NCBI GenBank assembly: GCA_030433215.1
Contig: JAUIMC010000003.1
Location: 248,001-312,000, forward strand
Direction of reading: 5' to 3'
Origin: Alphaproteobacteria bacterium
GTDB lineage: Bacteria > Pseudomonadota > Alphaproteobacteria > Caulobacterales > Parvularculaceae
Length of the DNA stretch: 64,000 bases
This document shows positions 9,652 through 64,000 of the stretch, piece by piece. The stretch's first letter is position 1, and the number at the start of each line of letters is the position of its first letter. Made by a program: the position numbers and the translations under genes. The notes beneath the pieces were generated by a model. It had not been told where the DNA came from. It worked only from the letters and a program-made list of their open reading frames with translations, and searched no databases.

Positions 9652-9653
9652 AT

Positions 9654-11230: not shown

Positions 11231-11360
11231 TCAATAGTCACCCTTTTCGCCATGTCGCTTCAGCAAAGAAAGAACGCGTCGGGCCCTCGCCAGAAAAGAT
11301 GACTCGCCGGGCGCCGGCTTCGCCAAGCCAGCATGAAACAGCCCGTCCCGCGCGCGCCCG

Positions 11361-12707
11361 TCAATCGTCTTCAACAACCGCGCGTGCAAAGACCCCGCGT
11401 GACAGGAGCGCCAGGCCGGCGCCCAGACCGGCAAAACCGGCGAGAACGACAGACAGCGACAACGCCAGGTCCTGCCCCGCAAAGAAGCGGTCATTCAGCA
11501 CGCCGATCAAGACAGGGCCGAGCCCGGCCGCGCAGAGAATTGTAGCGGTGACATAAAGGGACATGGCCAGGCCCCTATGGGGCGCAGGGGTCAGCATCTG
11601 CATGCCCACGACGGCGGCCGGACCGCAAATCTGGATCGCCGCCTGCGCCAGACTGTACCCCGCCAGCGAGACAATCAGGTTGTCCACGGAGGTGAAGGCG
11701 AGCATGCAAGGAATGCTCAACGCCATCGACAAGGCCACCAACAGGACGGGCGCGCCTTTGATATGGCGCATCGCGTCCAAGGCCGCGCCGCCCACCAGGA
11801 AGCCCAGGGGCGCGCTGATTGCCGTGACGAGTCCTGACAGAATGGCCGCTGTTGAGATGTCGAGACTGAATTCGCGAACATAAAAGCTGGGTGACCATGT
11901 GGCGAGCACGGTGTTCGCAAGGATCGCACATGAGGCATAGCTCAAATGCAGAAAATAGGCCGCCTTGCGCGAGCCCAGATGGGCAAGGGCTTCGCGTATG
12001 GTCGGCTGTGTCTCCTGTCGCCGGGGGGGATCCCGCAAGAGCAAAAAGATGGCGGCCAGAAACAAGCCCGGAACCGCGGCGAGGATAAAAAGGCCCCGCC
12101 ACGGCGAGAGATCGCGCCCCAGATGCCAGCCGCCTTGCTCGGTCAACAATGCCAGGACGGCGCCGCCGCCGACAAAGGCCAGAATCTTCCCGAACGAACT
12201 GCCGGTCAGGAAGACGCCCGTGGCGCGTCCGACCTTTTCGCGGGAGAAGTAGGAGGCGATCAGAGACGTGCCCGCCGGGAACACCGTCGCCTCCCCCATG
12301 CCAACGCAGGCTATGGCGATGAAGATGGCGGTAAAGGTGCTTGAGAATCCGATGGCGGCTGTGGCGAGGCTCCATATAATCGTGCCGAAGGCAATCAACC
12401 GGAAGCGATGAAACACGTCCGTAAAGCGCCCCATGGGTAATGAAAACAAGGCATAGGAAGCCGCAAAAGCGGGACCGGAAAGCAAACCGAGCTGCGTATC
12501 CGTCAGGTGCAGCTCCATCTTCATTCCCGGCAGAGCGACACTGATCAGATAGCGGTCCAGCACCGAAACCAGGTACGTCACTGTTAGCAAGCCCAGGATC
12601 GGCCAGGAATGCATGGCGCGCCTGGGGCCGCCCGGACCCGCAGCGGATTCTGCCGGCGCGGCGCCGCTTTTCAAAGGCCGCAGGTTCGACTCGCTCGCTT
12701 TCGACAT
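11361..12707 (-). CDS. MFS transporter
   Basis: This 448-residue membrane protein has about twelve hydrophobic segments after a polar N-terminus of some 35 residues. The signature loop between helices 2 and 3 is a divergent MGRFTDVFHRFR. The sequence resembles MFS carriers of organic anions (ACS-like groups), but the substrate cannot be set from sequence. Its position between an alpha/beta hydrolase and a CoA ligase suggests uptake of the acid that the ligase activates. Confidence 0.85.
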   Translation of the reverse strand: MSKASESNLRPLKSGAAPAESAAGPGGPRRAMHSWPILGLLTVTYLVSVLDRYLISVALPGMKMELHLTDTQLGLLSGPAFAASYALFSLPMGRFTDVFHRFRLIAFGTIIWSLATAAIGFSSTFTAIFIAIACVGMGEATVFPAGTSLIASYFSREKVGRATGVFLTGSSFGKILAFVGGGAVLALLTEQGGWHLGRDLSPWRGLFILAAVPGLFLAAIFLLLRDPPRRQETQPTIREALAHLGSRKAAYFLHLSYASCAILANTVLATWSPSFYVREFSLDISTAAILSGLVTAISAPLGFLVGGAALDAMRHIKGAPVLLVALSMALSIPCMLAFTSVDNLIVSLAGYSLAQAAIQICGPAAVVGMQMLTPAPHRGLAMSLYVTATILCAAGLGPVLIGVLNDRFFAGQDLALSLSVVLAGFAGLGAGLALLSRGVFARAVVEDD

Positions 12708-12837
12708 ATTTCTCTCGTTTCAAAAGCGGCAGGAGACACTACACGCGCCTCCCGCCTCCGTTCTTTTCCCAACCCAACCGTCGCCGGATGGGCGCGCGAT
12801 GAAAGGAGCCTTCGTCCATATGTTCGATGGCCTGTCT

Positions 12838-13956
12838 TCAGATCCTGGCGGCCGTCCATTCCGCAATCATGTCTCCGACCATCGGACGCAATGTCGAATC
12901 GTCTTCGAAGTAATGGCCGCCCGGCGTCATCTCGAGAGTCTTGTCTTTGGCGCCAAGGGCTTCGAAAATGATCTCCGCGTCACTTGGAAAGACGCCCTTG
13001 TCGCCTGTCCCCTGGATCACCAGAGACGGCAGCGCGACATGGCCGAGCTGCACCCCGCCACGGCACTGCGAGGTTTCAAGGCTCCACATGGAAAGCCATG
13101 TTTTTAACGTGCTCGATCTGCCCAGCGCGGAAAGCCCGCGATTTGCGGCCTGCGGATCGCCCCAATAGCATCCGGGACATTGCCGCGTTGACGGGTCGAT
13201 GGCCGGATCCATGAACCGCAAGTCCGCCCATGCGCGGAACAAGGGAAAGGTGCGGTCGGGAATGCCGGCTTCATTCAAGCGCGCCAGCTCTTGTTTCGCC
13301 CAATCGGTAATGCGCTGGTTGCGCGCCCGTTGGGCCGCGCGATAGCGATCGATAAAGTCCTCAGAGTAAGGCGGGCCATTGTCCGGATTGAAAGGATTGA
13401 GGGACTCGTCAGTCTTGACCGGGTCCGTTTCGTCGATGACCGAAGCGTCCAGCCAGTTCGTCAACACCTCCGGTCTTCCCAGATGCGAGTTGACCGAAAT
13501 ATAAAGCTGGCCGCCTTCCAACGACTGCAAGGCCTCTTGAGCGGCGGCGCTTGCGTCTTTCGCCAGCGCATGGTTTTGCGCTTCAGCCTGATACGCCGCC
13601 ATCAGCGATCCGCCGCCAGAATTGCCCAGCAGGATGATCTGTTCCACGCCCTGCCGGCGCAGCCAACTCACGCCCGCGCCAATGTCGATCAACGCGCTTT
13701 CGAGCAAAAACAGGTCTTCCGCGCCGCGAAACCGCGTGTTCCAGCCGAGAAACCCATAGCCCCGTTCGGCCATGACCGCGCCAAGATAATGGTCCGTGAA
13801 ATCGCCGTTATAGTGGCTTGCAATAAACGCCGTCTTTGGCCTTTTGCCCGCCGGCGTCCAGTAAGCCCCCTGACAACGATAACAATTCGGCAAGCGCGGC
13901 GCAGTCGGCGACTCCAACTCGACAAACTGTTTTTCAACCGACGCGGAATTGCCCAT
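12838..13956 (-). CDS. alpha/beta hydrolase, paralogue of the one at 131
   Basis: This 372-residue alpha/beta hydrolase has GNSGGGS around residues 111-117 and the catalytic His in GGHYFEDD near 347. It aligns with the 131-1267 protein over nearly its full length. Unlike that copy it has CYRCQG-type residues at the N-terminus and a short insertion of about ten residues after the nucleophile. No signal peptide is seen. Its gene lies 229 bases after the VOC gene at 14186, so it may have its own promoter; ATG 13956 is preceded by AGGAGAG. Confidence 0.88.
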   Translation of the reverse strand: MGNSASVEKQFVELESPTAPRLPNCYRCQGAYWTPAGKRPKTAFIASHYNGDFTDHYLGAVMAERGYGFLGWNTRFRGAEDLFLLESALIDIGAGVSWLRRQGVEQIILLGNSGGGSLMAAYQAEAQNHALAKDASAAAQEALQSLEGGQLYISVNSHLGRPEVLTNWLDASVIDETDPVKTDESLNPFNPDNGPPYSEDFIDRYRAAQRARNQRITDWAKQELARLNEAGIPDRTFPLFRAWADLRFMDPAIDPSTRQCPGCYWGDPQAANRGLSALGRSSTLKTWLSMWSLETSQCRGGVQLGHVALPSLVIQGTGDKGVFPSDAEIIFEALGAKDKTLEMTPGGHYFEDDSTLRPMVGDMIAEWTAARI

Positions 13957-14185
13957 TTTCTCTCCTATTCTACATCGCTCGACAGAAACATTTCGCGCCG
14001 CAAGGTGACGGCGTGATCGATTGCCGGGCCCCTTGCTGCTTAGCTGTGTGACGCCAGCGCACGGCCCGAGACCGGCCGCGCCGTAGACACTGCGCGCCGG
14101 ATGAAGACGGTTTCAGATCGGACGGGCGCGCTTCTCTGACGGCCATGGGCGCCGATTTTTTCTGTCGCCAACACCACGCCGCCCT

Positions 14186-14752
14186 TCATGACAAAGGAAC
14201 GCTGTCTTTTTGAGACGCAGGCGTGTTTGCCTCGTCAGGCCCCAACTCCCTCACCCATGCGGCGAATTCCAGCCGGATGCCATCAGGGTCAAAGAAGTAA
14301 ATGGCCCGAACATAAGTGGTCTCATTGACTTCCGGACTGACCGAGAGCCGGCTGTCATCATGGTTGACGATGGGCGTAACCTCGATGCCATGCTCGATGA
14401 GCCGCTGGCGATAAACATCCAGCATTTCGGGAGCGACAGTCAGCGCAACATGGTTCATCGACCCATGCGCCGACCTCCCGCCTCCCGGCTCCGAGCTTGC
14501 CACGCCGGGCGCGGCTTCGGGCGCATTGGGATACCAGAAGAAGGCGAGCGCCGTTTCATTGCCGATGTCAAAAAAGAAATGCTGCATGCCCGCAGACCAG
14601 TTCGGCACGTCGCCCGGGATTTCGAGCGTCTTGATCAGCGGAAAGCCGAGGATGTCACGGTAAAAATGCACCGTCCTTTCCATGTTCTTGCAGACCAGGG
14701 CGAGATGATGGATGCCGTGGGTCTGAAACTTCGGCTTTTCGGCATGCGTCAT
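14186..14752 (-). CDS. VOC-family protein, paralogue of the one at 1815
   Basis: This 188-residue two-module VOC protein keeps the metal ligands of its paralogue: His in HHLAL, His in NHVAL and Glu in RLEFAAW. The two proteins are near identical through the FYRDILGFPLIKTLEIP and MQHFFFDIGNET segments. It differs mainly at the C-terminus, which is 12 residues shorter. The gene heads the leftward run with the hydrolase, MFS transporter and CoA ligase, so the VOC plus hydrolase pairing is conserved at both sites. Confidence 0.86.
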   Translation of the reverse strand: MTHAEKPKFQTHGIHHLALVCKNMERTVHFYRDILGFPLIKTLEIPGDVPNWSAGMQHFFFDIGNETALAFFWYPNAPEAAPGVASSEPGGGRSAHGSMNHVALTVAPEMLDVYRQRLIEHGIEVTPIVNHDDSRLSVSPEVNETTYVRAIYFFDPDGIRLEFAAWVRELGPDEANTPASQKDSVPLS

Positions 14753-42596: not shown

Positions 42597-43643
42597 TCAA
42601 CTCTCTCCCTCCTCCCTGTCCATCATAGCTTGTAGCTTACGGCGGGCGCGCACGCCGCCAGCATCGCTAGCTATCATTAGTTCTTTCGGCTCATATCCGA
42701 TGGTCGTCAGCATCTTTTCGATTTCGCGAGTCGCCATAACGTCTTCCTCGATCACGGGACGAAGATATTCCCTGGCGCCGTCGAACTCCTCATCGCTCAT
42801 TGCGCCGCCCATGCCGAAAAAGTAATTCGTCGTATCGCGCTTGCCCGGCGTGACGGCATGGAAGACACGCAGCGCGGAAAGTTGTTCGCCGCCACGCGTC
42901 GGATGATCGTCCGGCATTTTTATTTCGTCGAGACCGGCGTGAAAGCCCGGAAAGTAAAAATCCATACCCGCAACGCGGTCCACTGGACCGTCATAGCCGT
43001 ATTGTCCTTGCTGACTCGGCGGGATAGGCGCATTTTTCATGTAACGCCGACTCTTGAACACATTTTCACGCTCTTCGCGCTGTTCCGGCGTAGACGCATT
43101 GTCATCCACGCCAATGCTCGTGCCGTGAAGATAGGCAAGATGCGTAAGATCCAGTAGATTGTCGTTCAACAGCTGGTAGCGCCCCTCTACTTCCAACGCA
43201 TAAAAGGGTTTGAATCGGAATGACGGATCACCGTAGCCGGACGCGTCGAGATCAGGCAGCAGCGCTTCATCGGCGTCTTGCGGGTCACCGGGCCAGATGA
43301 AGACCCACTCACCGCGTTCAGCGATGGGATATTTCTTGATGCGGTAGCTGCCTGGAACCTTTTGCTGAGAAGGAATATGCGTGCACTGGCCGTCCGCGCC
43401 GAACCTTATGCCATGATAGCCGCACTGGATCTCGTCGCCTTTGAGGCAGCCCTTGCCCAGCGGGAAATGCCGGTGCGGGCAGCGCCCGTCCAGCGCGACC
43501 GCCTCGCCCGCTTCGGTCCGGTACATCACAACGGGCTCGTTCAGAATCCACCGGGACAATAGCTCGCGCCTGAGCTCATGACTGAAGGCTGCGACATACC
43601 AACCATTGCGCGGCGCGAAACAACCCTCTTTGAACGGATACAC
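42597..43643 (-). CDS. Rieske non-haem iron oxygenase, VanA-like
   Basis: This is a 348-residue oxygenase alpha subunit. The Rieske 2Fe-2S ligands are CPH and CGYH at about residues 54-77. The mononuclear iron ligands lie in NDNLLDLTHLAYLH near 159-172. Length and layout match vanillate O-demethylase oxygenase-type enzymes that act alone as homotrimers. No reductase gene is adjacent; the electron partner must lie elsewhere. It is the last gene of the leftward operon, 42 bases after the fumarylacetoacetate-hydrolase-family gene. Confidence 0.9.
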   Translation of the reverse strand: MYPFKEGCFAPRNGWYVAAFSHELRRELLSRWILNEPVVMYRTEAGEAVALDGRCPHRHFPLGKGCLKGDEIQCGYHGIRFGADGQCTHIPSQQKVPGSYRIKKYPIAERGEWVFIWPGDPQDADEALLPDLDASGYGDPSFRFKPFYALEVEGRYQLLNDNLLDLTHLAYLHGTSIGVDDNASTPEQREERENVFKSRRYMKNAPIPPSQQGQYGYDGPVDRVAGMDFYFPGFHAGLDEIKMPDDHPTRGGEQLSALRVFHAVTPGKRDTTNYFFGMGGAMSDEEFDGAREYLRPVIEEDVMATREIEKMLTTIGYEPKELMIASDAGGVRARRKLQAMMDREEGES

Positions 43644-43685: not shown

Positions 43686-44651
43686 TTACGCCGCGCTGAA
43701 AACCTTTCGCGGATCAGGCGCGTCAATGCGGCGGACAGGCGTTTCCAGCCGGCCGAGCCCCTCGATCTCAATGACGATCCGCTCTCCGAACTCGTTTATA
43801 TTGCCGTAGGAGATGGGCCGGCGGTCTTCATCGGGATGCAGCGCCGTGCCGAGCGCGATGACGTCGCCGGGCAGAAGCGTCGCGTGCTTAGAAAGCCAGA
43901 AGATCACCTGCGGGATAGAGAAGTGATAGGCGCTGGTATTGTCGTCCATCAGGACGTCGTCATCGAGCCAGCACTGAACGCGCAAGGCCATGGGATCAGG
44001 CACGGCGCTTTTATGGACGATCGTCGGTCCGATGGGCGCAAACCCGTCCGCGCTTTTATAGCGCCCCTGATAAACCACATGTTCCGTCGTCGGCGTGAAA
44101 CCGCCCTTGCCATCAGGGATCGGGTATTCGGCGACGAAGCGGTCTTCCTTGCGCATTCCCACCGAGGTGATGTCGTTGAAGATCGTATAGCCGAACACAT
44201 GCTCCATGGCGTCTTCCATGGAGATGTTCTTTGCTTTCTTGCCGATAATCACGGCGAGTTCGGGTTCGGGATGAACCAAGCCGTAATGCGGGAAAAGCTC
44301 GACCGGGCGGCCATGGCCGTTGAGTGCTGAGGGAAATTTCGGAAAATAGACCGGAAAGTCCGGGCGGTACGTGAGCTGCGAGTCCGCGGCGGAATTGTTG
44401 AGCGCAATACACAGGATTTTCGAGGGATCAGGAATGGCGGGTGCCCACACGGCGTTATCCGCGTCGATCAGAGGCGCGCGGGCGTCTTCAGCGAACGCCT
44501 CAGCAGCGCTCAGCGCCGCATCGCCCATCTCGATGAACTGGCGCACGCTCGCAACTTCACGGCCCAGCGCCTGCAAGGGCGCAAAGCAGCCAGGTTCGGT
44601 TTCGAAAACGCCGAGCGTTTCTCCGTCAACGACAATTGATGCAAGTTTCAC
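43686..44651 (-). CDS. fumarylacetoacetate hydrolase-family protein
   Basis: This is a 321-residue FAH-fold enzyme. The metal ligands are visible in HPEPELAVIIGKK (two Glu, near residues 128-140) and the Asp in FNDITSVGMR. The conserved GDVIALGTA turn near 277 is also present. Family members hydrolyse acylpyruvates or hydrate/decarboxylate products of meta-cleavage. Its start overlaps the stop of the upstream Rieske gene by four bases, so a role in the same aromatic pathway is likely. Confidence 0.88.
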   Translation of the reverse strand: MKLASIVVDGETLGVFETEPGCFAPLQALGREVASVRQFIEMGDAALSAAEAFAEDARAPLIDADNAVWAPAIPDPSKILCIALNNSAADSQLTYRPDFPVYFPKFPSALNGHGRPVELFPHYGLVHPEPELAVIIGKKAKNISMEDAMEHVFGYTIFNDITSVGMRKEDRFVAEYPIPDGKGGFTPTTEHVVYQGRYKSADGFAPIGPTIVHKSAVPDPMALRVQCWLDDDVLMDDNTSAYHFSIPQVIFWLSKHATLLPGDVIALGTALHPDEDRRPISYGNINEFGERIVIEIEGLGRLETPVRRIDAPDPRKVFSAA

Positions 44652-45700
44652 TGGTCTTCCGCCCTGGCGCGCGCCGTTTCTTCGTCTCTCAACATTTTCT
44701 TGATCATGCGCCGCGCCTGAATGGCCGCCGCATCGCTCGGCAGAAGCACCGGATCGAGATCCCAGAAATCGCGCCCGCCCATGCGTTCCTGCACGGCGCG
44801 GATCATCGGCCGGTCTTCGTCCTGAAAGGCGCGCGTGGCGAACTCTTCCATGATCGCGCCGATCTCTTCATTGCCGCGATTGAAGTTGCGGAACATTTTC
44901 CAGAAATAATGCGACGTCTCTTCAGTTTCCGGCGTTATGATGTGAACCGTCGGCAGGGCGTTGCCTTCTTCGCGCTCGCCGCCTGTCGGCTTGACGCCCA
45001 CATCGAGAAAGAACGTCGCCGGCGCATCCCAGCGCATTTCGAGCCACGTATCCACATGAACATCGCCCGTCGCCGCGCCTGTCGCGGTCCAGATCGGCGG
45101 CGGCGGCGCATCATAGGTCGACAACAAGGAATAGATCCGCTCGCCGTCGCGACGCACATCGGTTTCCGTTCTGAGGCCTGGCGTCGGCGCCAGCGTGTCG
45201 GGATGGAGATAGGCGCCGTGGGTGAGATCGAGAAGATTATCGAGAATGAGGTCCCAGGCGAGCGGCATGTGCATCACATGGCCGTCGGAAAAATCATAAA
45301 CGTCGTCTTCATTCAGCCAATTATAATCGGGCACTTTGCGCTCATCGGCGAGCGCCGGATCGCCGAGCCACACCCAGATCAGCGTGTCCCGCTCCACCAC
45401 CGGATAAGCCTTGATCGACGCCGATTTCGGGATCGTTCCGTCGCCATGAGGGTTGTGGACACAGGCGCCGGCCTTGTCGAAACGCAAACCGTGATAGCCG
45501 CACTCGATCTCGCCATTGACAATATTGCCGCGATGCAGCGGCGCGAAACGGTGCGGACAGGTGTCGTTCAGCGCGACGATCTTGCCGTCGGTCCCGCGAT
45601 AAAGAAGAACCGGTTCCTTTGCAATCGTGCGCGCGAAAGGACGATCCGCGACTTCTGCGGACCAGGCGGCCGCATGCCAGACATTCTTCAGCATGGACAT
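44648..45700 (-). CDS. Rieske non-haem iron oxygenase, second copy
   Basis: This is a 350-residue oxygenase alpha subunit. The start at 45700 follows GGGAGG and begins MSMLKNVWHAA, as in VanA-type proteins. The Rieske ligands are CPH and CGYH near residues 47-70, and the iron site is in DNLLDLTHGAYLH near 152-164. It is clearly a separate paralogue of the 42597 enzyme, with a longer insertion before the C-terminus. It is the first gene of the operon and divergent from the extradiol dioxygenase fusion. Confidence 0.9.
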   Translation of the reverse strand: MSMLKNVWHAAAWSAEVADRPFARTIAKEPVLLYRGTDGKIVALNDTCPHRFAPLHRGNIVNGEIECGYHGLRFDKAGACVHNPHGDGTIPKSASIKAYPVVERDTLIWVWLGDPALADERKVPDYNWLNEDDVYDFSDGHVMHMPLAWDLILDNLLDLTHGAYLHPDTLAPTPGLRTETDVRRDGERIYSLLSTYDAPPPPIWTATGAATGDVHVDTWLEMRWDAPATFFLDVGVKPTGGEREEGNALPTVHIITPETEETSHYFWKMFRNFNRGNEEIGAIMEEFATRAFQDEDRPMIRAVQERMGGRDFWDLDPVLLPSDAAAIQARRMIKKMLRDEETARARAEDQ

Positions 45701-45774
45701 TATCCGTTCCTCCCATATGCGCGGCGAAGCGGACGCGCCCGAGGCGGTCAACCTGCTCTTTTGCGTCCAATCTT

Positions 45775-45868: not shown

Positions 45869-47323
45869 ATGACGGGCGAAACGCATCAAAAAGATGCCGA
45901 GGCAGAGTGCGCCCTGCGACGCCTCGTTGAGGAATACTGGGCGCGGGTCGACCGTCGTTACGGCGTGGAAGGCGACTTCCAGAATTTTTTCGCCGAAGAC
46001 GCAACAATGCGCCTCGCTGTTCTTAACCTTGAGGGCCGCGAGGCCGTTATCGGTTTTCTTCGCGACCGCGAAGAAAAGATGGGCGTCCAGAAGCGCGTCA
46101 CGCGCCATGTCCTTTCGAACTATTTTCTCTCCCGTCTGAGCGCCGATGAGGCTCTGCTTCACACGACCATTCAGGTTTACGCCGGCGAAGGCGACCTGCC
46201 GCTTCCCTGCGGGGCGCCAAGCGGCGTCGGTGACTTCGTATTCCACTTCGTCCGGGCCCCCGGCGCAGGATGGCTCATCGCAAGAATCGAGGGCGACAGC
46301 ATTTTCGCGGGCGACGCGGCGCCCGCCTTCGCCAAGGGAACACAGACTTCCATGGAGCAACAAAAAGGCGCGGCGTTCAGCGCTTGCGTTCCCCACGCGC
46401 CGATGATGAAGCTGCAGGCGCGCCGTCATAATGAAGCGTTCTGGGCCGAATATGACCGCCTGGTGGATGAATTCGAGCGCTTCGATCCCGAGCTGGTGAT
46501 CGTTTTCGGCGGCGATCATGTCAACACCATGCACCTGTCCCTGATGCCCTCTTTCATGGTCGGCCAAGCCGCCGAAGCGATTGAAGATTGGGGCGGCGCG
46601 CAAGGCGTTCTCGACGTGCCCGGCGATCTCGCCATCGATCTCGCCGACACGCTTATCGATGCGGATTTCGATATTGCGACCTCCTACGCCATGAAGGTCG
46701 ATCACGGGTTTTCCGCCGTACTTGATGCGTTTTTGCGCGGCGACCTTGCTTCCGTTCCGGTCATTCCGGTTTTCATCAACTCGCACTATCGCCCGCGCCC
46801 TTCCCTCAGACGCTGCCGCGAACTCGGCGCCGCCATCGGCGAATGGGCGGGCAAACTCGGCAAGCGCGTCGCTTTTCTCGGCTCCGGCGGTCTCTCCCAC
46901 GACGTCTCCATGATCTTTCCGCAATATGAAAACGCTCCCGATGAGAAGACGCGCGACATCATGGTGCACGGCCATGAAAAGCTCGGGATCGACCTCCAGG
47001 AATCGCTGGAAACCGTGCGCCAGATCATGACCGGCCATGCCGAAGACCTGCTAAAAGGCGGCGAAAGCCCCGTCGCGGCGAACCCGTCTTGGGACAAGGA
47101 ATTTCTCGATGCGTTTGGCGGCGATCTCAAAGCCTTCGACGCCTGGAGCGATGAGAAAGTGCTCGCAGGCGGCGGCTCGGGCGGCGGCGAAGTGAGAATG
47201 TGGATCGCCGCCGGCGCCGCCGGCCTCGCGGCCGGCTCCGCGCCCATTGAAATCGACTATTTCACGCCGCGTTCGACACTCGGCTTCGGGCTCGGTCTCG
47301 CCCACGCCGGAAAGCGCGCCTGA
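45869..47323 (+). CDS. SnoaL-like domain fused to LigB-type extradiol dioxygenase
   Basis: This is a 484-residue two-domain protein. Residues 1 to about 155 look like a SnoaL/NTF2 fold (ALRRLVEEYWARVDRRY, NFFAEDATMRL). Residues 165-480 are a class III extradiol dioxygenase related to 2,3-dihydroxyphenylpropionate 1,2-dioxygenase, with SACVPHAPMM, FGGDHVNTMHL and GSGGLSHDVS. The strong GGAGGAGACCGA before ATG 45869, and the lack of a good ribosome site before the internal ATG at 46352, support a true fusion. It should cleave a catechol-type ring made by the Rieske enzymes. Confidence 0.9.
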   Translation: MTGETHQKDAEAECALRRLVEEYWARVDRRYGVEGDFQNFFAEDATMRLAVLNLEGREAVIGFLRDREEKMGVQKRVTRHVLSNYFLSRLSADEALLHTTIQVYAGEGDLPLPCGAPSGVGDFVFHFVRAPGAGWLIARIEGDSIFAGDAAPAFAKGTQTSMEQQKGAAFSACVPHAPMMKLQARRHNEAFWAEYDRLVDEFERFDPELVIVFGGDHVNTMHLSLMPSFMVGQAAEAIEDWGGAQGVLDVPGDLAIDLADTLIDADFDIATSYAMKVDHGFSAVLDAFLRGDLASVPVIPVFINSHYRPRPSLRRCRELGAAIGEWAGKLGKRVAFLGSGGLSHDVSMIFPQYENAPDEKTRDIMVHGHEKLGIDLQESLETVRQIMTGHAEDLLKGGESPVAANPSWDKEFLDAFGGDLKAFDAWSDEKVLAGGGSGGGEVRMWIAAGAAGLAAGSAPIEIDYFTPRSTLGFGLGLAHAGKRA

Positions 47324-56310: not shown

Positions 56311-56354
56311 TATAGTTATTGTTCTGCGCGCAAGAAACTTGGAAGGAAACGACA

Positions 56355-58331
56355 TTGCAGTTCCATTTGAATGGATTTCGGGCCGGCGACCCGGAGCTTC
56401 TGCCCCCCGCCGCAGGGCGAGAGGCTGGAGAAGGCCCGAAAACGTTGCCGGAACAAGCAGACGTTTTGATCGTCGGCTGCGGCCCGACGGGGCTGGCTCT
56501 GGCCTGCCAGCTTTCAGGCTTTCCCGATATCGAGACCTGCATCGTCGAACGCAAGGACGGCCCGCTGGAACTGGGGCAAGCGGACGGCATCGCCTGCCGG
56601 TCCATGGAAATGTTCAATGCGTTCGGGTTTGCCGAACGCGTTCTCAAAGAAGCCTATTGGGTTAACGAACTCACCTTCTGGAAGCCAAAAGACGATAACA
56701 CGCGAGAGATCGTTCGCAGCTCCAGCGTCAGGGACACCGAAGAGGGGTTGTCGGAATTCCCTCATGTCATCCTCAATCAGGCGCGCGTGCACGAATTCTT
56801 TCTCGATACGATGCGCAAGTCGCCCACCCGGCTGACGCCGCATTACAGCTGGCAGATCGCCAGCGTGGACATTGATCAAGAAGCCGCCAAGGACGAGGAG
56901 GCCTATCCCGTCACCGTCACGCTCGAACGCCCCGACGGGCATGGCGAACCGGAGACGCGCCAGGTCAGGGCCCGCTATGTCGTCGGCTGCGACGGCGCGC
57001 GCAGCAAGGTGCGCCAGGAGATAGGGCTCAGCCTCAAAGGAGACTCTATCAACCAGGCGTGGGGCGTGATGGATGTTCTCGCCCTCACCGACTTTCCCGA
57101 CATGCGCAAGAAAAGCGTCATCAACTCTTCCGAGGGCAGCATCGTGCTGATCCCCCGCGAAGGAGGCTATCTTGTCCGCATCTATGTCGAGATGGGCAAG
57201 CTAAAGGAGAATGAGCGGATTTCAGCGCGCAAAATCGTGCTGGAAGACATCATCGGCGCCGCGCAGCGCATTTTCAGCCCCTATGCGCTGAATGTGAAGG
57301 AAGTCGCATGGTGGTCGATCTACGAGATCGGCCAGCGCCTGTGTCCGCATTTCGACAATATCGGCGACGGCCAGACAGGGCTGCCGCGCGTCTTCATCGC
57401 CGGCGATGCGTGCCACACGCACAGCCCGAAAGCCGGACAAGGGATGAATGTGTCGATGCAGGACGCCTTCAATCTCGGGTGGAAGCTCGCTGCTGTCCTG
57501 CGCGGACAATGCGCGCCGGAATTGCTGCATAGCTATTCGACAGAACGGCAGTCGATCGCCCACGAACTTATTTCCTTCGACCGGAAATGGGCCACCCTGC
57601 TCAGCATGCCGGTCAAATCCGAAAACGATCCTGATGGCGAGGGCGTCGAAGCGAGCGAGATCGAAAAGTATTTCGTTCAGCATGGTCACTATACCGCCGG
57701 AACAGCGACCGTTTACAGCCCTTCCGCCATTACCGGCGAACCGGAACACCAACCTCTCGCCAAAGGGTTTCGCATTGGCGCGCGTTTCCATTCCGCGCCC
57801 GTCATTCGGCTGGCTGACGCAAGGCCCGTGCAGCTGGGCCATACGGTCGAGGCGGATGGACGGTGGCGGCTTTTCGTCTTTGCGGGAATGAACGATTCCG
57901 GCGAACCGGGGTCTCCTGTCGCCGCGCTGTGCGATTTTCTCACGTCGTCACCGACCTCGCCAATCGTCCGCTACACGCCAAAGGACGCCGACGTGGACTC
58001 GGTGATCGATGTGAGAGCGATCTTTCAGCGTCATTTCCGCGAACTCGACCCCATGGACATGCCCGGATTGCTGCTGCCGCAAAAAGGCAAATACGGCTTG
58101 CGGGATTACCAGAAAGTTTTCGTCACCGACCAGTCGGGCGGCCGCGACATCTATGAAATGCGCGGCATTGACCGCGAAAAGGGCTGCGTGGCGATCATTC
58201 GTCCCGACCAGCATGTCGCCCATATCCTGCCGGTCGACGCGCATGACGCGCTCAGCGCCTTCTTCGATGGATTCATGATCAATAAGTCCGGGCAGAAGGC
58301 CACCAAGAAAGCGATGGATCTGGCCAAGTAG
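56355..58331 (+). CDS. FAD-dependent aromatic monooxygenase, phenol 2-monooxygenase-like
   Basis: This is a 658-residue class A flavoprotein hydroxylase. The FAD motif VLIVGCGPTGLALACQL lies near residues 37-53, the second motif GCDGARSKVR near 210-219 and the GD motif GDACHTHSPKAGQGMN near 345-360. The C-terminal 200 residues match the thioredoxin-like dimerisation domain of phenol hydroxylases and 3-hydroxybenzoate 4-monooxygenases. It should hydroxylate a phenolic acid using NAD(P)H and O2. TTG at 56355 is chosen because AAGGAA lies six bases before it; the frame opens at 56319 without a better site. Confidence 0.88.
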   Translation: MQFHLNGFRAGDPELLPPAAGREAGEGPKTLPEQADVLIVGCGPTGLALACQLSGFPDIETCIVERKDGPLELGQADGIACRSMEMFNAFGFAERVLKEAYWVNELTFWKPKDDNTREIVRSSSVRDTEEGLSEFPHVILNQARVHEFFLDTMRKSPTRLTPHYSWQIASVDIDQEAAKDEEAYPVTVTLERPDGHGEPETRQVRARYVVGCDGARSKVRQEIGLSLKGDSINQAWGVMDVLALTDFPDMRKKSVINSSEGSIVLIPREGGYLVRIYVEMGKLKENERISARKIVLEDIIGAAQRIFSPYALNVKEVAWWSIYEIGQRLCPHFDNIGDGQTGLPRVFIAGDACHTHSPKAGQGMNVSMQDAFNLGWKLAAVLRGQCAPELLHSYSTERQSIAHELISFDRKWATLLSMPVKSENDPDGEGVEASEIEKYFVQHGHYTAGTATVYSPSAITGEPEHQPLAKGFRIGARFHSAPVIRLADARPVQLGHTVEADGRWRLFVFAGMNDSGEPGSPVAALCDFLTSSPTSPIVRYTPKDADVDSVIDVRAIFQRHFRELDPMDMPGLLLPQKGKYGLRDYQKVFVTDQSGGRDIYEMRGIDREKGCVAIIRPDQHVAHILPVDAHDALSAFFDGFMINKSGQKATKKAMDLAK

Positions 58332-58546: not shown

Positions 58547-59332
58547 ATGGAGACCACGTCAGACCGCACGCTCAACTGCCTCTTCCTGTTTTCTGCAACG
58601 GAGCCGGAATGGACCGTTGAATTGGCGGCCGAACGCCTTGGCGTATCGGTCAGCACGGCATATCGCTATTTCCGGAGCCTCGCCGCCTGCGGATTGATTT
58701 CCGCCTTCGCGCCAGGACGCTATGTGCTCGGCCCCGCGATTTTAGAACTCGACCGGCAGATGCGTATGCTGGATCCGCTGGTGCATTCCGCGTCCCCGGT
58801 GATGCATTCATTGATCGAGCAGATAGGCCATCCGGGAGTAACGCTGCTTTGCCGGCCCTATCATGACCGGGTCATGTGCGTGCATCAGGAGACGTCACGC
58901 GACATCACGTTGCATTCGAGCTATGAACGCGGGCGGCCCATGTCGCTTTTTCAGGGCTCGATGTCGAAGATTATCCTCGCCTATATGCCGCCACGGTCTG
59001 TGAAATCGCTTTATTCATCCAACAAGGAAATGGTCGCGCGCGGCGGCCTGGGCAGAAGCTGGGCCGAGATGAGAACATTGCTCCGCCAGCTCAGGAATCA
59101 GGGCTATTCCGTATCCCATGCCGAGCTGGACCCCGGCGTCGCCGGCATTTCGGTGCCAATATTCGATATCGACAGACAAGTGGCCGGAAGCCTGGGCTTC
59201 GTGTGCCTTGAACGGGACTTCGAGACCGTATTTGCGGACGGCGCGGTCTCGCGCCTGCAAGCCAGCGCCAAAGAGATCGAGACAGCCTTGTCTAACCGGA
59301 TCGCGGCAGGCTCGAACGAAACGCAGAGCTGA
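58547..59332 (+). CDS. IclR-family regulator
   Basis: This is a 261-residue regulator. The N-terminal winged helix (WTVELAAERLGVSVSTAYRYF) lies near residues 23-43. The IclR effector domain includes the VALL-like strand VTLLCRPYHDRVMC and ends in a helix near residue 250. Such proteins often sense aromatic acids. It follows the monooxygenase gene on the same strand and faces the transporter operon, so it probably controls one or both. The start lacks a strong ribosome site. Confidence 0.87.
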   Translation: METTSDRTLNCLFLFSATEPEWTVELAAERLGVSVSTAYRYFRSLAACGLISAFAPGRYVLGPAILELDRQMRMLDPLVHSASPVMHSLIEQIGHPGVTLLCRPYHDRVMCVHQETSRDITLHSSYERGRPMSLFQGSMSKIILAYMPPRSVKSLYSSNKEMVARGGLGRSWAEMRTLLRQLRNQGYSVSHAELDPGVAGISVPIFDIDRQVAGSLGFVCLERDFETVFADGAVSRLQASAKEIETALSNRIAAGSNETQS

Positions 59333-59384: not shown

Positions 59385-60755
59385 TTACTGATGTGAAGAC
59401 CGGATCCGAAGCGCGCTGACCCCGCCGGCCGCAAGCACCGGCAGAACGGCGAGGGATCCGAACAGAACGAAAGTGCTCCCGCCGGCCGCAATGATCGCGC
59501 CTCCAAGCAGGGGCCCGGCGACGCTGCCCATCCTGCCGGCGAGGGACGCGCCGCCGACGCCTGTCGACCGCATGCCGGTCGGATAGAATTCGGCGGCCAG
59601 CGCATTCAGCACAAGCTGCGCACCGCCCACGGACAGCCCCGTGAGGATGGCCGCAACGATCAGCGCAGGAAGTCCGAAAGAAATCGCGCCGCCTACGGCA
59701 ATGCACAAGACCGCTGAAAAAATGAAATTCACCCCAAGCACGAACTTGACGCTCGTTCTGTCCGAAAACCAGCTCAGAACCACGCCGCCGACGATCGCCC
59801 CGAGATTGAGCATCGCCGCAGGAATGACCGCCCGTTCCGCCGATAATCCCGCAGACGCGAGGGTCGTCGGCAGCCAGCTGATCAGAAAATACCAGACGAC
59901 CTGATTGATGAAGGTGACAAACCAGAGGAGCGAAGTAGACAGACCGCGGCCATCCGCAAACAGGTCCTTCCACCGCGAGCTCGCCTGCGCTCCTTTGTCA
60001 GGCGCGCTCTTCATATCAAGCTCTTCGGAAATTCCGATGCGCGCCAGAAGCTGCTTGGCCTTCTTGCGGTATTCTTCGGCGCGCGGGCTGCCGGCCGCCT
60101 CGGCGACCCCGGCCAGATGGCCCATAAAGAGGATCGATTCGGGCAGCAACATGTAGGCCACCGCAGCAACCAGGAAAGGCGCAATGCCGCCGATCAGGAA
60201 AAGCGCGTGCCAGCTGTAAAGATCCAGCACAACCGACGCGAAAAGCCCCCCAAGAAAGCCGCCCAGCGGAAAGCCGGTCATCATCAAAGCGATCGCAAGG
60301 GCCCGGCGGCGCTTGGGCGCGTATTCAGCGGTTAAGGCGATGATATTGGGAATTGCGGCGCCGAGCCCGACCCCGGTGACGAAACGCAGAAGGATGAGAA
60401 TCGAAAGGTTCGAAACAAATACCGTCGCCAGGGAGAGCGCGCCGAAGATAAGAAGCGAGGCGATGATGATCGGGCGGCGCCCGACAGTATCCGACACTGG
60501 CCCCTGCCCGACGACCCCGATAAGGACGCCAAGCAGGCCGGCCGTAAACACGGTGGTGAAGTCAGACTGCTGAATGCCCCACTCGCTGATAATGGCGGGC
60601 GCCGCGAAACCGATTGCCTGAATGTCGAACCCGTCGAAGAACGCGACTGAAAAACATAGAAAGAAAACGATCAGCTGCACGCTGCCGATGGGCGATTTGT
60701 CGATCAGTTGCTCCAGTCGCGCTGCAGCAGTCGCCTGGCTTTCAGGCTGGGTCAT
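59385..60755 (-). CDS. AAHS-type MFS transporter for aromatic acids
   Basis: This is a 456-residue twelve-helix transporter. FDGFDIQAIGFAAP near residues 41-54 carries the DGFD motif of the aromatic acid:proton symporter group (PcaK, MhpT, BenK relatives). GPVSDTVGRRP fills the loop between helices 2 and 3. A long hydrophilic central loop near 210-250 is also typical. The gene is last in the leftward operon, 27 bases after the TAXI-type gene, and should bring an aromatic acid into the cell for the neighbouring oxygenases. Confidence 0.9.
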   Translation of the reverse strand: MTQPESQATAAARLEQLIDKSPIGSVQLIVFFLCFSVAFFDGFDIQAIGFAAPAIISEWGIQQSDFTTVFTAGLLGVLIGVVGQGPVSDTVGRRPIIIASLLIFGALSLATVFVSNLSILILLRFVTGVGLGAAIPNIIALTAEYAPKRRRALAIALMMTGFPLGGFLGGLFASVVLDLYSWHALFLIGGIAPFLVAAVAYMLLPESILFMGHLAGVAEAAGSPRAEEYRKKAKQLLARIGISEELDMKSAPDKGAQASSRWKDLFADGRGLSTSLLWFVTFINQVVWYFLISWLPTTLASAGLSAERAVIPAAMLNLGAIVGGVVLSWFSDRTSVKFVLGVNFIFSAVLCIAVGGAISFGLPALIVAAILTGLSVGGAQLVLNALAAEFYPTGMRSTGVGGASLAGRMGSVAGPLLGGAIIAAGGSTFVLFGSLAVLPVLAAGGVSALRIRSSHQ

Positions 60756-60782
60756 GGTTCAACTCCCGGACAATCACGAAGC

Positions 60783-61733
60783 TTATAGGTAGCCGTGCTC
60801 TCGATAATAGCGTTCAGCTCCCGGATGCAGAGGCACGGGAGTCGTTTGCGCACTGGCCGTTAAATCGACGGGACCGGTGAGCGGCGAAAACGGCTGGGGA
60901 AACAAGGCCTCTATTTCGTGCTTTTGTTCATCGATCGCCGCAATGGTCAAATAGGCCAGGTCTTCTTCCATGTCCGCGCGACAAACGAGGGCCCAGCCGC
61001 TGAAATCCGGCGTGGGCACGTCCTCTTCGACGCCGCGAAACTGTCCCGCCCGGATGACGCCCGCGCGCCAGCCGCGCGCCGCCAGACGGTCGAGGACATC
61101 GCGGTCCACTGGCAGGAAGCGCATGTCATACGTATCGGTCAACATCTTCCACCGGCGCGTGGACAGCGCCTCGTCGAACACTGCCTCGAAACGCTCATTG
61201 GCGAGTTTCTGGTCCGGCGCGTTGATGAAACGCGGCCGGTCCGACAGCAATTCCCCGCCCCAGGAAACGATATCATCGAGCGTAATGCCGTATTCGGCGA
61301 GCACGCTTTCGGCGCCCCACAGCGCCGGATGCCACGTATTCCGGGAGATGATCGAAAGCCGCAACGGATAACGCCGCTCGCGGATATCATGGAAGCTCTC
61401 TATGCCGGTTTCGCGGCGTACGGCGAACGCCATGCGGTCGTCATGGGGAAAGGTCGCAAGCATGCGCAACGGCAAAGGCTCTTCGAAAGGCGGCGCGCCC
61501 TCAACGGCAAGCTTCACGAACCAGTCGGGCGTCGTAATCGCCATGTCCGCCTTTCCCGCCGCAACCCACTTCGGGCCCAGCAGGCACATTTCGCCCGGAT
61601 CGGCGGCGACGACGGAGACCGCGGACCCGGCTGGCAGCTTGCCGGAATAGCCCGTCAGGCCAAGCGCAATTTTACCGCACAAGGAGATCCAGTTTCCGCC
61701 CGAGCCCAGGATTCTGACCTCTCTGGCCTTCAT
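60783..61733 (-). CDS. TAXI-family solute-binding-like protein without signal peptide
   Basis: This is a 316-residue protein with the type II periplasmic-binding fold of the TAXI group of TRAP-associated receptors. Visible elements are VRILGSGGNW at the start, ADMAITTPDW near residue 62 and FAVRRETGIESFHDI near 102. Ordinary members are exported and work with DctQM-type permeases. Here no signal peptide is present, since the mature-like fold begins at residue 4, and no TRAP permease gene is nearby. Its start overlaps the Rieske ferredoxin stop by four bases. A cytoplasmic binding or enzymatic role is inferred. Confidence 0.78.
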   Translation of the reverse strand: MKAREVRILGSGGNWISLCGKIALGLTGYSGKLPAGSAVSVVAADPGEMCLLGPKWVAAGKADMAITTPDWFVKLAVEGAPPFEEPLPLRMLATFPHDDRMAFAVRRETGIESFHDIRERRYPLRLSIISRNTWHPALWGAESVLAEYGITLDDIVSWGGELLSDRPRFINAPDQKLANERFEAVFDEALSTRRWKMLTDTYDMRFLPVDRDVLDRLAARGWRAGVIRAGQFRGVEEDVPTPDFSGWALVCRADMEEDLAYLTIAAIDEQKHEIEALFPQPFSPLTGPVDLTASAQTTPVPLHPGAERYYREHGYL

Positions 61734-62080
61734 GCAGGACTATCCTTTTCCTCACGTTTCTCAACTGTGACGAGCACGCGTCCGTTCTCGACGCGCGCCG
61801 CGTAAACTGGCAGCGGACGCCGCAATCCCGTCGAGGCGACGCTTTCGCCCGTCGCCAGGTCGAAACGAAAGCGGTGCCAGGGGCATTCGATTTCGTTGCG
61901 CTTGACGCAAATTTTTCCCTCACGCATCGGCGCGCCCCAGTGCGGGCAGGTATTCCCAAACGCAAAGACCTTGTCCCCTGCCCTGGCGATCGCCATCAGC
62001 CGCCCGCCGACACGCTTCATCAGGGGCCGGTCGGGATCGATGTCTGTGAGCGCTGCAACATCCGTTTCGACCATCACCAT
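61730..62080 (-). CDS. Rieske [2Fe-2S] ferredoxin
   Basis: This is a 116-residue soluble Rieske protein. The cluster ligands are CPH near residues 44-46 and CPWH near 65-68. No transmembrane helix is present, so it is of the ferredoxin type that feeds oxygenases. No reductase or oxygenase alpha subunit is adjacent. Its start overlaps the upstream gene's stop by seven bases and its stop overlaps the TAXI gene, so its product is made together with both. Confidence 0.88.
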   Translation of the reverse strand: MVMVETDVAALTDIDPDRPLMKRVGGRLMAIARAGDKVFAFGNTCPHWGAPMREGKICVKRNEIECPWHRFRFDLATGESVASTGLRRPLPVYAARVENGRVLVTVEKREEKDSPA

Positions 62081-62646
62081 TGTGCTCGCGCCTCCGCTTC
62101 CGCCGGACTATCGTGTTGCGGGTCGAAACGATAGGCGAGCGGGTGTTCGGCGCCGCATTCATCACAGGTTCGAAGCGCCGGATCCTCATTGAAAGCGGCG
62201 ACGCATTTTGCTTCCTCATCCCAGAAGGCGTTCCATCGCGCGCGGCCGGACTCAATATCAAATTTGGCGAGCAAATGACCGCATTTCGGACATATCCATT
62301 GAATGGAATCAGAGAAGTAGGTTCCCGAACAGCCGCCGAGGATCAAGGCGTAATAGACCCCTTCGGCCTGAACTGACCTGACCGTGATGATGTCGGCGTC
62401 GCATATGCGCCAATAGCCGAACAGATGCTCAATATGATGGGGCGTGCCGCCGTCCACGATCTGCATGACCGTCTCGCTATCCGGAATTCTCACCACGCCT
62501 TCGGGAATCTGTTTCCAGACCGTCAGGGGCGGATCTGTCAGCGCACGCAATTCCGTCCACACGAAATAGTCATGACTGCGAGACCACTTGCCCCTGTTCT
62601 CCGGCGCGGTGTTGAATTCGAATAGATAGCTCAGGTCGGGTTTCAA
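62074..62646 (-). CDS. unknown protein with rubredoxin-like paired CxxC motifs
   Basis: This is a 190-residue protein. The N-terminal 110 residues have no sure match. The C-terminal third has WICPKCGHLL and, about 40 residues later, LRTCDECGAEHPL. The spacing and flanking residues recall the C-terminal iron site of bacterial 3-hydroxyanthranilate 3,4-dioxygenase, but the His/Glu cupin ligands of that enzyme are not evident. TTG at 62646 is preferred because AAGGGG lies six bases before it; the open frame to 62721 would overlap the receptor gene. It is the second gene of the receptor-Rieske-TAXI-transporter operon. Confidence 0.7.
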   Translation of the reverse strand: MKPDLSYLFEFNTAPENRGKWSRSHDYFVWTELRALTDPPLTVWKQIPEGVVRIPDSETVMQIVDGGTPHHIEHLFGYWRICDADIITVRSVQAEGVYYALILGGCSGTYFSDSIQWICPKCGHLLAKFDIESGRARWNAFWDEEAKCVAAFNEDPALRTCDECGAEHPLAYRFDPQHDSPAEAEARAQW

Positions 62647-62686
62647 AACAGTCCCCTTTCGGCCAGACACGCACGCTCCCCGCGCA

Positions 62687-64000
62687 TTAGAAATTCGCCT
62701 CCAGACGAATGCCGATTTCACGCGGCCGCCCGGGTTCGATTTGCACGAACCCGAATGGCAAATCGATATTCAGGCCGTTATTGATATAAAACTCATCGGT
62801 GAGATTAGTCCCGAAGAGTGCGATCGACCACCGGTCTTCAGGCGAGACATAGGCGATTCTCGCACTGAGCAGGCCGTAGGAATCGACCGGCACGGCGCTG
62901 AAGATGCTGGTTGTCGTCACGAAATCGTCCTGCCAGTTATAGTCGGCGCGGATATCGACGCGATCGCCTTTGGGCAGGTCGATCGAATATTGCCCGCCCA
63001 CGGAGAAAGAAATCTCCGGCGAGCGTCCGAGACGCTCTCCGACCACGAACCCCGGGAAGGATCCCGCATCGAGTTCAACGATTTCGGAGTCGAGCCAGCC
63101 GAATGCGCCGTTCAAGGTTAAGTTCGCAGTCGGGCGCGCAACAAAGTCAAGCTCAAGACCTTTCACGTCCGCTTCACCGATATTCTCGGTGAGAATCAGC
63201 GACCGGTTGGGAATGACAGGATCGGTCGTGTTGATCGCCTGTTGCATGTTCTTGTATTTGGACCAGAAGAAGGCGGCGTTGAACCGCAGCATCCGGTCGA
63301 ACAGTTCGCTTTTCAGACCAACCTCGTAATTGGTGCTGGTCTCGTCTTCAAACGGCAGGAAAGTGAACCCGCCGCCGGTAACGCCGATAATGCGGTCATT
63401 GAGGCCGCCGCCTTTATAGCCGCGGGTATAGGACGCGTAGGCCATGATGTCCTGCGTCAAGTCATATTGCACATCGAAGCGCGGCGTGATCGAATCGAAA
63501 TCAATCGGCGCCGTGACAACCACATTGGGAAAACGGGTCGGCTCAGCCAGGATGAGCGTTTTGTCGTCATAGGTGTAGCGCAGGCCAGCCGTTGCGCTTA
63601 ACCGGTCGGTGATATCGATCGTCGCCTGACCGAATGCGGCGTAAGACTTCGTATTCTGATCGTAGCTGAACTGCTCCACATTCGCGAAGGAGCCAACGCC
63701 GCGCTGCGCGATGCTGCGCTCGTCTTCCGGGTTTTCCTGGAAATAGAACAGCCCGGCGACCCAATTGATGCGGTCATCCCAGAACTCGCCCGAAAGCTGT
63801 AATTCCTGCGAGAACTGCCAGAACGTACGCTGGGAACGGCTCTCGAACATGCGGACGGGCGTGCCGTCGCCGTCGAGCGCGATATCGAGATCATAACCGC
63901 GATAGGCGGTCAGGGACTTGAAGCTGACGCCCCCGAGATCCCAGTTCACCTCGCCGCTAAAGCCCCAGCTCTCAAGCTCGTGGAATGTCGGCCCTGACGC
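62687..64000 (-). CDS. TonB-dependent receptor, N-terminus outside window
   Basis: The frame runs off the right edge and stops at 62687, leaving 437 residues of a TonB-dependent receptor barrel. Typical segments are GLRYTYDDKT, ASYTRGYKGGGLND and the C-terminus EIGIRLEANF with terminal Phe. The signal peptide and plug lie beyond 64000. It is the first visible gene of the leftward operon and should bring the operon's substrate across the outer membrane. Confidence 0.92.
   Translation of the reverse strand, partial: ASGPTFHELESWGFSGEVNWDLGGVSFKSLTAYRGYDLDIALDGDGTPVRMFESRSQRTFWQFSQELQLSGEFWDDRINWVAGLFYFQENPEDERSIAQRGVGSFANVEQFSYDQNTKSYAAFGQATIDITDRLSATAGLRYTYDDKTLILAEPTRFPNVVVTAPIDFDSITPRFDVQYDLTQDIMAYASYTRGYKGGGLNDRIIGVTGGGFTFLPFEDETSTNYEVGLKSELFDRMLRFNAAFFWSKYKNMQQAINTTDPVIPNRSLILTENIGEADVKGLELDFVARPTANLTLNGAFGWLDSEIVELDAGSFPGFVVGERLGRSPEISFSVGGQYSIDLPKGDRVDIRADYNWQDDFVTTTSIFSAVPVDSYGLLSARIAYVSPEDRWSIALFGTNLTDEFYINNGLNIDLPFGFVQIEPGRPREIGIRLEANF

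Follow-up and report, generated by a model that had tools for sequence, protein, structure and literature searches.

Why would a soluble Rieske-type ferredoxin and a TAXI protein share an operon that holds neither a Rieske oxygenase nor a TRAP transporter permease? The question is raised by a run of genes at the end of a 64,000-nucleotide stretch (C24:248001-312000, hereafter the window) of a 3.75-Mb, 98% complete alphaproteobacterial genome. An original prediction, made from the letters of the window, had described this run as an unusual operon of a TonB receptor, a rubredoxin-like protein, a Rieske ferredoxin, a TAXI protein and an aromatic acid carrier, and had proposed that its three middle products form a new oxygenase or substrate-activating complex for an imported aromatic acid. 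We propose, with a probability of roughly 0.42, that the cluster encodes an electron-dependent iron oxygenase system for an aromatic acid, derived from 3-hydroxyanthranilate 3,4-dioxygenase (HAO) and accompanied by a TAXI protein that acts as an enzyme. The earlier interpretation is only partly supported, because more than three genes belong to the unit, the protein described as rubredoxin-like is an HAO relative without the HAO triad, and the likelier oxygenase is encoded outside the window.

Two related gene sets adjoin at the window edge

Reading of the open reading frames (ORFs) bears out the five-gene arrangement. On the minus strand, a TonB-dependent receptor gene that is cut by the window edge (62687-64000 in the window) is followed by HAO1, the rubredoxin-like gene (62074-62721 as the longest ORF), RFd1, which encodes the soluble Rieske-type ferredoxin (61730-62080), TAXI1 (60783-61733), and the gene for an AAHS-type MFS carrier of the aromatic acid/H+ symporter family (59385-60755). 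The middle genes are as tightly packed as claimed: RFd1 overlaps HAO1 by 7 bases and TAXI1 by 4 bases, and a gap of 27 bases separates TAXI1 from the carrier gene. The most likely true start of HAO1 is a TTG codon near 62646, about 40 bases after the receptor gene, because AAAGGGG precedes this codon and the ORF of a homologue from Defluviicoccus (L006, described below) opens at the corresponding residue; the ORF of a second homologue (L004), as printed, starts further upstream. The TonB receptor, Rieske, MFS_1 and NMT1_3 (TAXI1) assignments lie above Pfam cut-offs, and the carrier scores 326.6 bits against TIGR00895, below the curated cut-off of 418.55.

Related genes run on beyond the window as far as the end of TAXI2, 4.6 kb away, on a contig that ends 6.6 kb beyond the window. 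We number them within L003, a locus reaching past the window whose position 1 is window position 54000. Here the receptor ORF, 780 residues in full (8688-11030), extends about 1.0 kb past the window edge. Beyond it lie RFd2, a second Rieske ferredoxin gene (11180-11512, minus strand); BICUP, which encodes a fused cupin protein of 439 residues (11509-12828, minus strand) and overlaps RFd2 by 4 bases; HAO2, a paralogue of HAO1 with 35% identity over 144 residues (12879-13571, plus strand); and TAXI2, which encodes another TAXI protein of the cytoplasmic type described below, 33% identical to TAXI1 over 271 residues (13606-14646, minus strand). HAO2 lies 4.2 kb from the core of HAO1, RFd1 and TAXI1 and on the opposite strand. 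Two related sets adjoin, each made up of one or more HAO-like proteins, a Rieske ferredoxin and a TAXI protein.

The gene set recurs in other genomes

When genome contigs were scanned with HAO1 through a peptide-pattern filter that admits close relatives only, three loci came back, all in metagenome-assembled genomes of Defluviicoccus (L004, L005 and L006). The order HAO2-HAO1-RFd-TAXI1 is collinear in all three, with identities of 59, 47-48, 38-40 and 59-61%, respectively. This shared order in a second genus makes the set more than a chance grouping. The three-gene core that had been singled out for a genome search does occur elsewhere, but it is not complete: HAO2 is a collinear fourth member in Defluviicoccus. 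After the cassette, L004 and L006 carry a separate TAXI gene with a signal-peptide-like start and then a permease ORF, that of L006 being a TRAP fused permease by profile (599.8 bits); a permease ORF is also seen in L005.

Strong matches to HAO1 and HAO2 were confined to their own genome among 62 genomes of the family (searched with a single protein), 398 of the order, 385 of the class and 398 of the phylum, these sets being drawn samples that partly overlap. The weaker matches from the order, class and phylum that had a readable ORF resemble HAO, except for one beta-type gene in a genome of the same order (G285). Neither HAO1 nor HAO2 matched a plasmid, and a near-identity plasmid search found nothing. 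Relatives of BICUP are present on eight plasmid records, seven from Phaeobacter gallaeciensis and one from Sphingobium sp. AntQ-1, each time as two hypothetical proteins. In both plasmid records that were read (Phaeobacter and AntQ-1) these proteins are encoded by separate genes, here called alpha and beta; we use the same names for the two halves of BICUP. A profile search with alpha across 367 genomes of the class matched our genome only.

The Phaeobacter, AntQ-1 and G285 loci each contain an electron carrier and a gene of the binding-protein fold, either TAXI, a homologue of 4,5-dihydroxyphthalate decarboxylase, or both. In AntQ-1, the decarboxylase homologue, which is annotated PhnD/SsuA and matches PDB 9jp7 at E 6.5e-87, directly precedes alpha and beta, and a PDR/VanB-type reductase gene follows. 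The Phaeobacter locus comprises a cytoplasmic-type TAXI gene, a dienelactone hydrolase gene, an HcaD-like reductase gene on the opposite strand, an SCP2-like gene, alpha, beta, an IclR gene and a flavodoxin-like ORF. A second cytoplasmic-type TAXI gene lies some 6.5-11 kb upstream with MhpA-type hydroxylase, FAH and VOC genes, and a secreted TAXI protein and a TRAP fused permease are encoded about 2-5 kb downstream. G285 begins with genes for an MhpA-type hydroxylase, a ferredoxin reductase, a dienelactone hydrolase and a flavodoxin; next, in one gene run, come a decarboxylase homologue (43% identical to that of AntQ-1), GST, a cytoplasmic-type TAXI, alpha and beta; and VOC, flavin reductase and FAH genes follow beta, with another VOC gene divergent. 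In Aminobacter, where the plasmid searches with HAO1, HAO2 and BICUP gave no match, a TAXI1 relative (41% identity) sits in a similar catabolic cluster. Parts of the gene set thus recur in unrelated bacteria, mostly beside aromatic-degradation genes.

Distant relatives of HAO

No family matched HAO1 above its cut-off; the best NCBIfam match was the HAO model NF009763, at E 1.4e-5. Scores against this model were far below its cut-off of 220 bits (25.1 for HAO1, 36.3 for BICUP and 37.3 for HAO2, within a range of 25-42 across the HAO-like proteins), and alpha of AntQ-1 did not match it at all. Profile-profile comparison was made with 27 HAO-type sequences, which came from fetched weak-match loci that passed a motif filter and also served as controls below. 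It gave probabilities of 97.0% for alpha, 98.7% for beta, 98.1% for HAO2, 97.9% for HAO1 and 98.8% for HAO1 and HAO2 together. Judged by these profiles, both BICUP halves are distant relatives of HAO, as are HAO2 and, very distantly, HAO1. They share with the bacterial type that carries a rubredoxin-like site (NF009763/TIGR03037) the four-Cys site and the C-terminal region, and alpha shares the His-x5-Glu spacing. They differ from it in their low scores, in being two-subunit or fused proteins, in the lack of the HAO triad from HAO1, HAO2 and beta, and in their linkage to electron carriers.

The four cysteines of the rubredoxin-type site (Cys144, Cys147, Cys186 and Cys189 of HAO1) are conserved: they are invariant in all eight HAO1 and HAO2 sequences, from two lineages, and in all four alpha sequences, and kept by three of the four beta sequences. 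HAO1 is a distant HAO relative in which the HAO triad is not seen, and not a rubredoxin. In the beta half of BICUP (L003 12259-12828) both CxxC pairs are lost; the three separate beta subunits keep them.

We take the iron of HAO to be held by a His-Glu-His triad. The only invariant histidines of alpha are H65 and H95 (H269 and H299 of BICUP), and E71 (E275) stands six residues after H65, in 4 of 4 sequences. This His and Glu align with the first His and the Glu of HAO in six of six MAFFT runs, and the third ligand His is aligned in three of the six; of the triad, beta has retained just the final residue. Because alpha keeps the His-Glu pair, and possibly the third His, and HAO1 and HAO2 lack a full triad, the best candidate for the catalytic protein is BICUP/alpha, encoded outside the window.

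Searches of PDB sequences reached a best E of 0.27 for HAO1 and 0.75 for BICUP. When a weak model of the Defluviicoccus HAO2 was searched with Foldseek, the 18 best matches were all HAO, at E 5e-3 to 4e-2 and none at or below 0.001, which lends weak support to the assignment. The segment WHINDKDELY of HAO2 had been considered as the His-x5-Glu of HAO; this candidate was dropped, as the profile alignment puts WHINDKDELY on the second cupin motif.

Electron carriers accompany the HAO-like pairs and fusions

The C-x-H and C-x2-H motifs of both Rieske ferredoxins are intact (CPH...CPWH in RFd1), their Rieske domains score 57.7 and 64.1 bits, where the cut-off is 20.3, and their nearest curated models are AndAb/HcaC, below the cut-offs of these models. 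Such ferredoxins recall three-component Rieske non-heme iron oxygenases, and so do the reductases, HcaD-like or similar, that two of the related loci encode. Those systems differ in their terminal component: neither the operon nor the genome has a PF00848 oxygenase, and the putative terminal protein here is a four-Cys cupin relative.

HAO-like pairs or fusions are found at six loci, counting the two sets described here, Defluviicoccus (once), Phaeobacter, AntQ-1 and G285. A carrier or its reductase lies inside the cluster at all six and within 1.5 kb at five. Three kinds are represented: a Rieske ferredoxin (RFd1 and RFd2 here, and in Defluviicoccus), an FNR-type reductase (the PDR/VanB-type protein of AntQ-1), and a flavodoxin with a ferredoxin reductase (G285, and Phaeobacter, where the HcaD-like reductase scores 345.7 of 450 bits and the flavodoxin-like ORF is interrupted). 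The same carrier queries matched none of the 27 HAO-type control loci (1.5-kb flanks). A Fisher test worked by hand on 5/6 versus 0/27 gives about 2.5e-5, for six loci that are not a random sample and of which two come from one genome. The interrupted ORF of Phaeobacter gallaeciensis (pP11_c, L062 22418-22960) adjoins the alpha, beta and IclR genes and has no gene in the plasmid record.

The alternative that survives best, although we consider it somewhat unlikely, is that BICUP and the proteins related to it act as ordinary ring-cleaving dioxygenases of the extradiol kind, whose ferredoxin or flavodoxin would only re-reduce ferric iron and whose TAXI protein would convert the cleavage product. 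Plant-type ferredoxins such as XylT re-reduce the iron of catechol 2,3-dioxygenase. Alpha keeps the His-x5-Glu spacing of HAO and a later His, and the FAD hydroxylase, VOC, FAH hydrolase and dienelactone hydrolase genes among the neighbors in Phaeobacter and G285, and around the Aminobacter TAXI gene, form a usual ring-cleavage set. The distribution of carriers, with none within 1.5 kb at the 27 HAO-type loci and three kinds spread over the six clusters that hold HAO-like pairs or fusions, argues against this alternative. So does the presence in the G285 and Phaeobacter clusters of VOC-family genes, which already supply possible extradiol enzymes.

A cytoplasmic type of TAXI protein

TAXI1 scores 81.3 bits against TIGR02122, just below the cut-off of 84.35, and 74.9 bits against Pfam NMT1_3, above the cut-off of 27. 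It resembles the TAXI solute-binding proteins of TRAP transporters in its Pfam family profile and its C-terminal HPGA region. It differs from them in lacking a signal peptide by hydropathy, in several residues particular to its group, described here, and in having no TAXI-type fused TRAP permease above cut-off in its genome. We compared ten proteins of this cytoplasmic type with 14 secreted TAXI proteins, namely 12 from L083-L109 that passed a length and motif filter plus those of Defluviicoccus and Phaeobacter. The two groups split in an unrooted tree with a support of 0.998, and branching within the cytoplasmic-type group is poorly supported. D99, E188, W195, S245, P69 and P96 are invariant in all ten cytoplasmic-type proteins and occur in none of the 14 secreted ones, S245 falling in a gap in all 14. 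The highest 10-residue hydropathy mean within the first 60 residues is at most 1.95 in the cytoplasmic type and at least 2.17 in the secreted proteins; this measure is a heuristic that replaces a signal-peptide predictor; ORFs or annotation supplied the starts, and the G534 and G509 proteins were trimmed to a later Met. By this heuristic and these residues, TAXI1 is predicted to be cytoplasmic in type and without a signal peptide, in agreement with the original prediction. Because Defluviicoccus and Phaeobacter carry a separate secreted TAXI protein and permease, the cytoplasmic protein need not be the binding protein of that transporter.

A class-wide search with a cytoplasmic-type profile gave matches in at least 204 of 371 genomes, mostly to ordinary TAXI. 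TAXI frames were read at 8 of the 11 neighbourhoods fetched: that of G534 is cytoplasmic-type, and the other seven have signal-peptide-like starts by eye. The TAXI protein of G509 is also cytoplasmic-type; L113 was seen as an ORF start only, and L119 was left out. Cytoplasmic-type TAXI genes occur as well on a plasmid of Hymenobacter, of the Bacteroidota (L065 7809-8846), and in another genome of the class (G509 C10:208928-209716), with no HAO-like gene detected near either. The one at L110 (G534 C6:244000-263000) lies amid hydantoinase-like genes (by eye), an MhpA-like hydroxylase gene and VanA-type Rieske oxygenase genes.

4,5-Dihydroxyphthalate decarboxylase (Pht5; PDB 9jp7) is likewise a non-secreted enzyme related to binding proteins, and homologues of it are encoded directly before alpha-beta in AntQ-1, in the same gene run in G285, and on our own contig. 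It differs from TAXI1 and TAXI2, which belong to the TAXI/NMT1_3 family. By analogy with it, the cytoplasmic TAXI protein would be an enzyme of the same pathway as the HAO-like proteins; removal of a carboxyl group or a comparable lyase reaction is its most likely step. It might instead be a ligand sensor, or a carrier that hands the acid to the oxygenase, with no enzymatic activity; this idea is compatible with the other readings and agrees with binding without catalysis, the usual role of TAXI/NMT1_3 proteins. We think it unlikely, given that D99, E188, W195 and S245 set all ten cytoplasmic-type proteins apart from the 14 secreted relatives sampled and that TAXI shares its gene run with a decarboxylase homologue in G285.

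Standard partners elsewhere in the genome

The original prediction had stressed that the usual partners of both proteins are missing. PF00848, the oxygenase alpha subunit, has no match in the genome, and the contig beyond the window contains no Rieske oxygenase gene. The absence of a Rieske partner holds for the operon but not for the genome, where oxygenases of the VanA_C and LigXa_C types occur. The Rieske domain has seven matches genome-wide: four large oxygenase-type proteins, RFd1, RFd2, and a weaker match that is probably respiratory. Two of the large proteins are VanA_C-type and lie in the window (42597-43643 and 44648-45751), 16 and 18 kb away; the others are a LigXa_C-type protein (C24:226988-228325) and one that is VanA-type by reading (C19:25501-26631). 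As for TAXI, no fused TRAP permease of the TAXI type exceeds the TIGR02123 cut-off anywhere in the genome, where three weak matches were found, in line with the claim. Two HcaD-like reductases, at C19:4266 and C24:224889 (347 and 338 bits, cut-off 450), could feed RFd1 and RFd2.

The main rival reading of the ferredoxins is that RFd1 and RFd2 serve these VanA_C- or LigXa_C-type oxygenases and stand beside HAO-like genes incidentally. It would suit their being the only small Rieske proteins among the seven matches, the VanA_C-type pair in the window, the large Rieske proteins at C19:25600 and C24:228011 and the two reductases located elsewhere. It is distinctly improbable, since RFd1 shares bases with both HAO1 and TAXI1 and keeps its place between their homologues in Defluviicoccus, three oxygenase queries within 10 kb on either side of the Defluviicoccus loci matched the ferredoxin itself only, and a plant-type ferredoxin is encoded in the cluster of the LigXa-type gene.

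A proposed electron-dependent oxygenase system

In the system that we favor, the FAD monooxygenase encoded next to the carrier, a possible upstream step, would hydroxylate the imported aromatic acid. BICUP and the HAO1/HAO2 pair would each work with a dedicated Rieske ferredoxin. Electrons would pass from this ferredoxin to the rubredoxin-type four-Cys site and on to the cupin iron, where they would serve an O2-using oxygenation or keep the iron reduced. Gene order and its recurrence, the four-Cys site, the His-x5-Glu of alpha, the Rieske motifs, the lack of a signal-peptide-like stretch, the residues of cytoplasmic TAXI and the recurrent carriers are read directly in the sequences; complex formation, electron flow, chemistry and substrate are inferred.

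Several results weigh against this proposal. By default, the profile alignment between alpha and HAO extends over no more than the C-terminal 72 columns, and forced full-length profile alignments pair the His and Glu of alpha with those of HAO and leave the third His unpaired. No alignment run places the full His-Glu-His triad in HAO1 or HAO2, a set of eight sequences from two lineages only. AlphaFold models of HAO1 from the window and HAO2 from Defluviicoccus (L004), built on 7-row alignments, are poor (mean pLDDT 46.5 and 46.6). The carrier comparison covers few loci, two of them in one genome, with a short control flank, and on the Phaeobacter plasmid an in-frame stop interrupts the flavodoxin-like ORF, with the reductase gene on the opposite strand. 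A PDB sequence search with TAXI1 (E up to 1) returned eight chains without 9jp7, and the best match of the AntQ-1 decarboxylase homologue to a TAXI protein has an E no better than 0.007, so the analogy with the decarboxylase is one of family resemblance and neighborhood. Finally, ring cleavage with iron reactivation fits nearly as well.

A bolder form of the proposal, which we regard as quite unlikely, is that these proteins make up a non-heme iron oxygenase of several components that would form a class of its own. An HAO-derived cupin, as a heteromer or a fusion, would use its rubredoxin-type iron as a built-in electron relay, in the role that the Rieske center has in Rieske oxygenases. Its carriers would be exchangeable (Rieske ferredoxin, flavodoxin or FNR-type reductase), and a cytoplasmic TAXI enzyme would complete it. 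The rubredoxin-like iron of bacterial HAO is discussed mainly as an iron reservoir. If the proposal is true, the rubredoxin-like iron of the HAO fold would gain a purpose as an electron relay, aromatic catabolism would have an added oxygenase architecture, and TAXI binding proteins would have given rise to cytoplasmic enzymes, like the 4,5-dihydroxyphthalate decarboxylase lineage.

The conserved unit is a real and rare one. Our literature searches, confined to one library, listed no paper on this gene system. For AntQ-1, the terms cupin, hydroxyanthranilate and substrate-binding are absent from the main text of PMC9836352, and the anthraquinone region highlighted there spans 68,745-106,725 of pANTQ-1, outside which the genes considered here lie (about 115.5-119 kb). 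PMC11705938 presents an ordinary TAXI protein with a TRAP permease in a polycyclic aromatic hydrocarbon cluster. Such pathways are easily overlooked, because the plasmid records read here name these genes "hypothetical protein" and "TAXI family TRAP transporter solute-binding subunit".

Neighboring genes and further observations

Two plus-strand genes adjoin the minus-strand AAHS-type carrier gene. One encodes an IclR-type regulator (58547-59332) with 43% identity to the product of the IclR gene beside the Phaeobacter alpha/beta pair, and the other the FAD monooxygenase, of phenol-hydroxylase type (56319-58331; NF006144 above cut-off). Past TAXI2, beyond the window, lies an MFS transporter gene, EmrB-like by eye (L003 14845-16329, minus strand).

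On the same contig, the homologue of 4,5-dihydroxyphthalate decarboxylase at C24:229655 is 79% identical to that of AntQ-1. Because it lies near the LigXa-type oxygenase and the plant-type ferredoxin, other genes of this contig may enable the organism to break down a phthalate-like acid. Within this phthalate-type cluster (C24:224832-231643), a nadC-like quinolinate phosphoribosyltransferase gene adjoins the LigXa_C-type oxygenase gene; pANTQ-1 has a nadC-annotated gene near its decarboxylase homologue, together with a 78% identical LigXa-type gene. In the window, the two VanA_C-type oxygenase genes adjoin a 484-residue ORF (45869-47323, plus strand) in which a LigB-type extradiol dioxygenase domain (PF02900) is joined to an N-terminal part of about 170 residues that looks SnoaL-like by eye, and genes for an FAH hydrolase and an alpha/beta hydrolase also adjoin this ORF.

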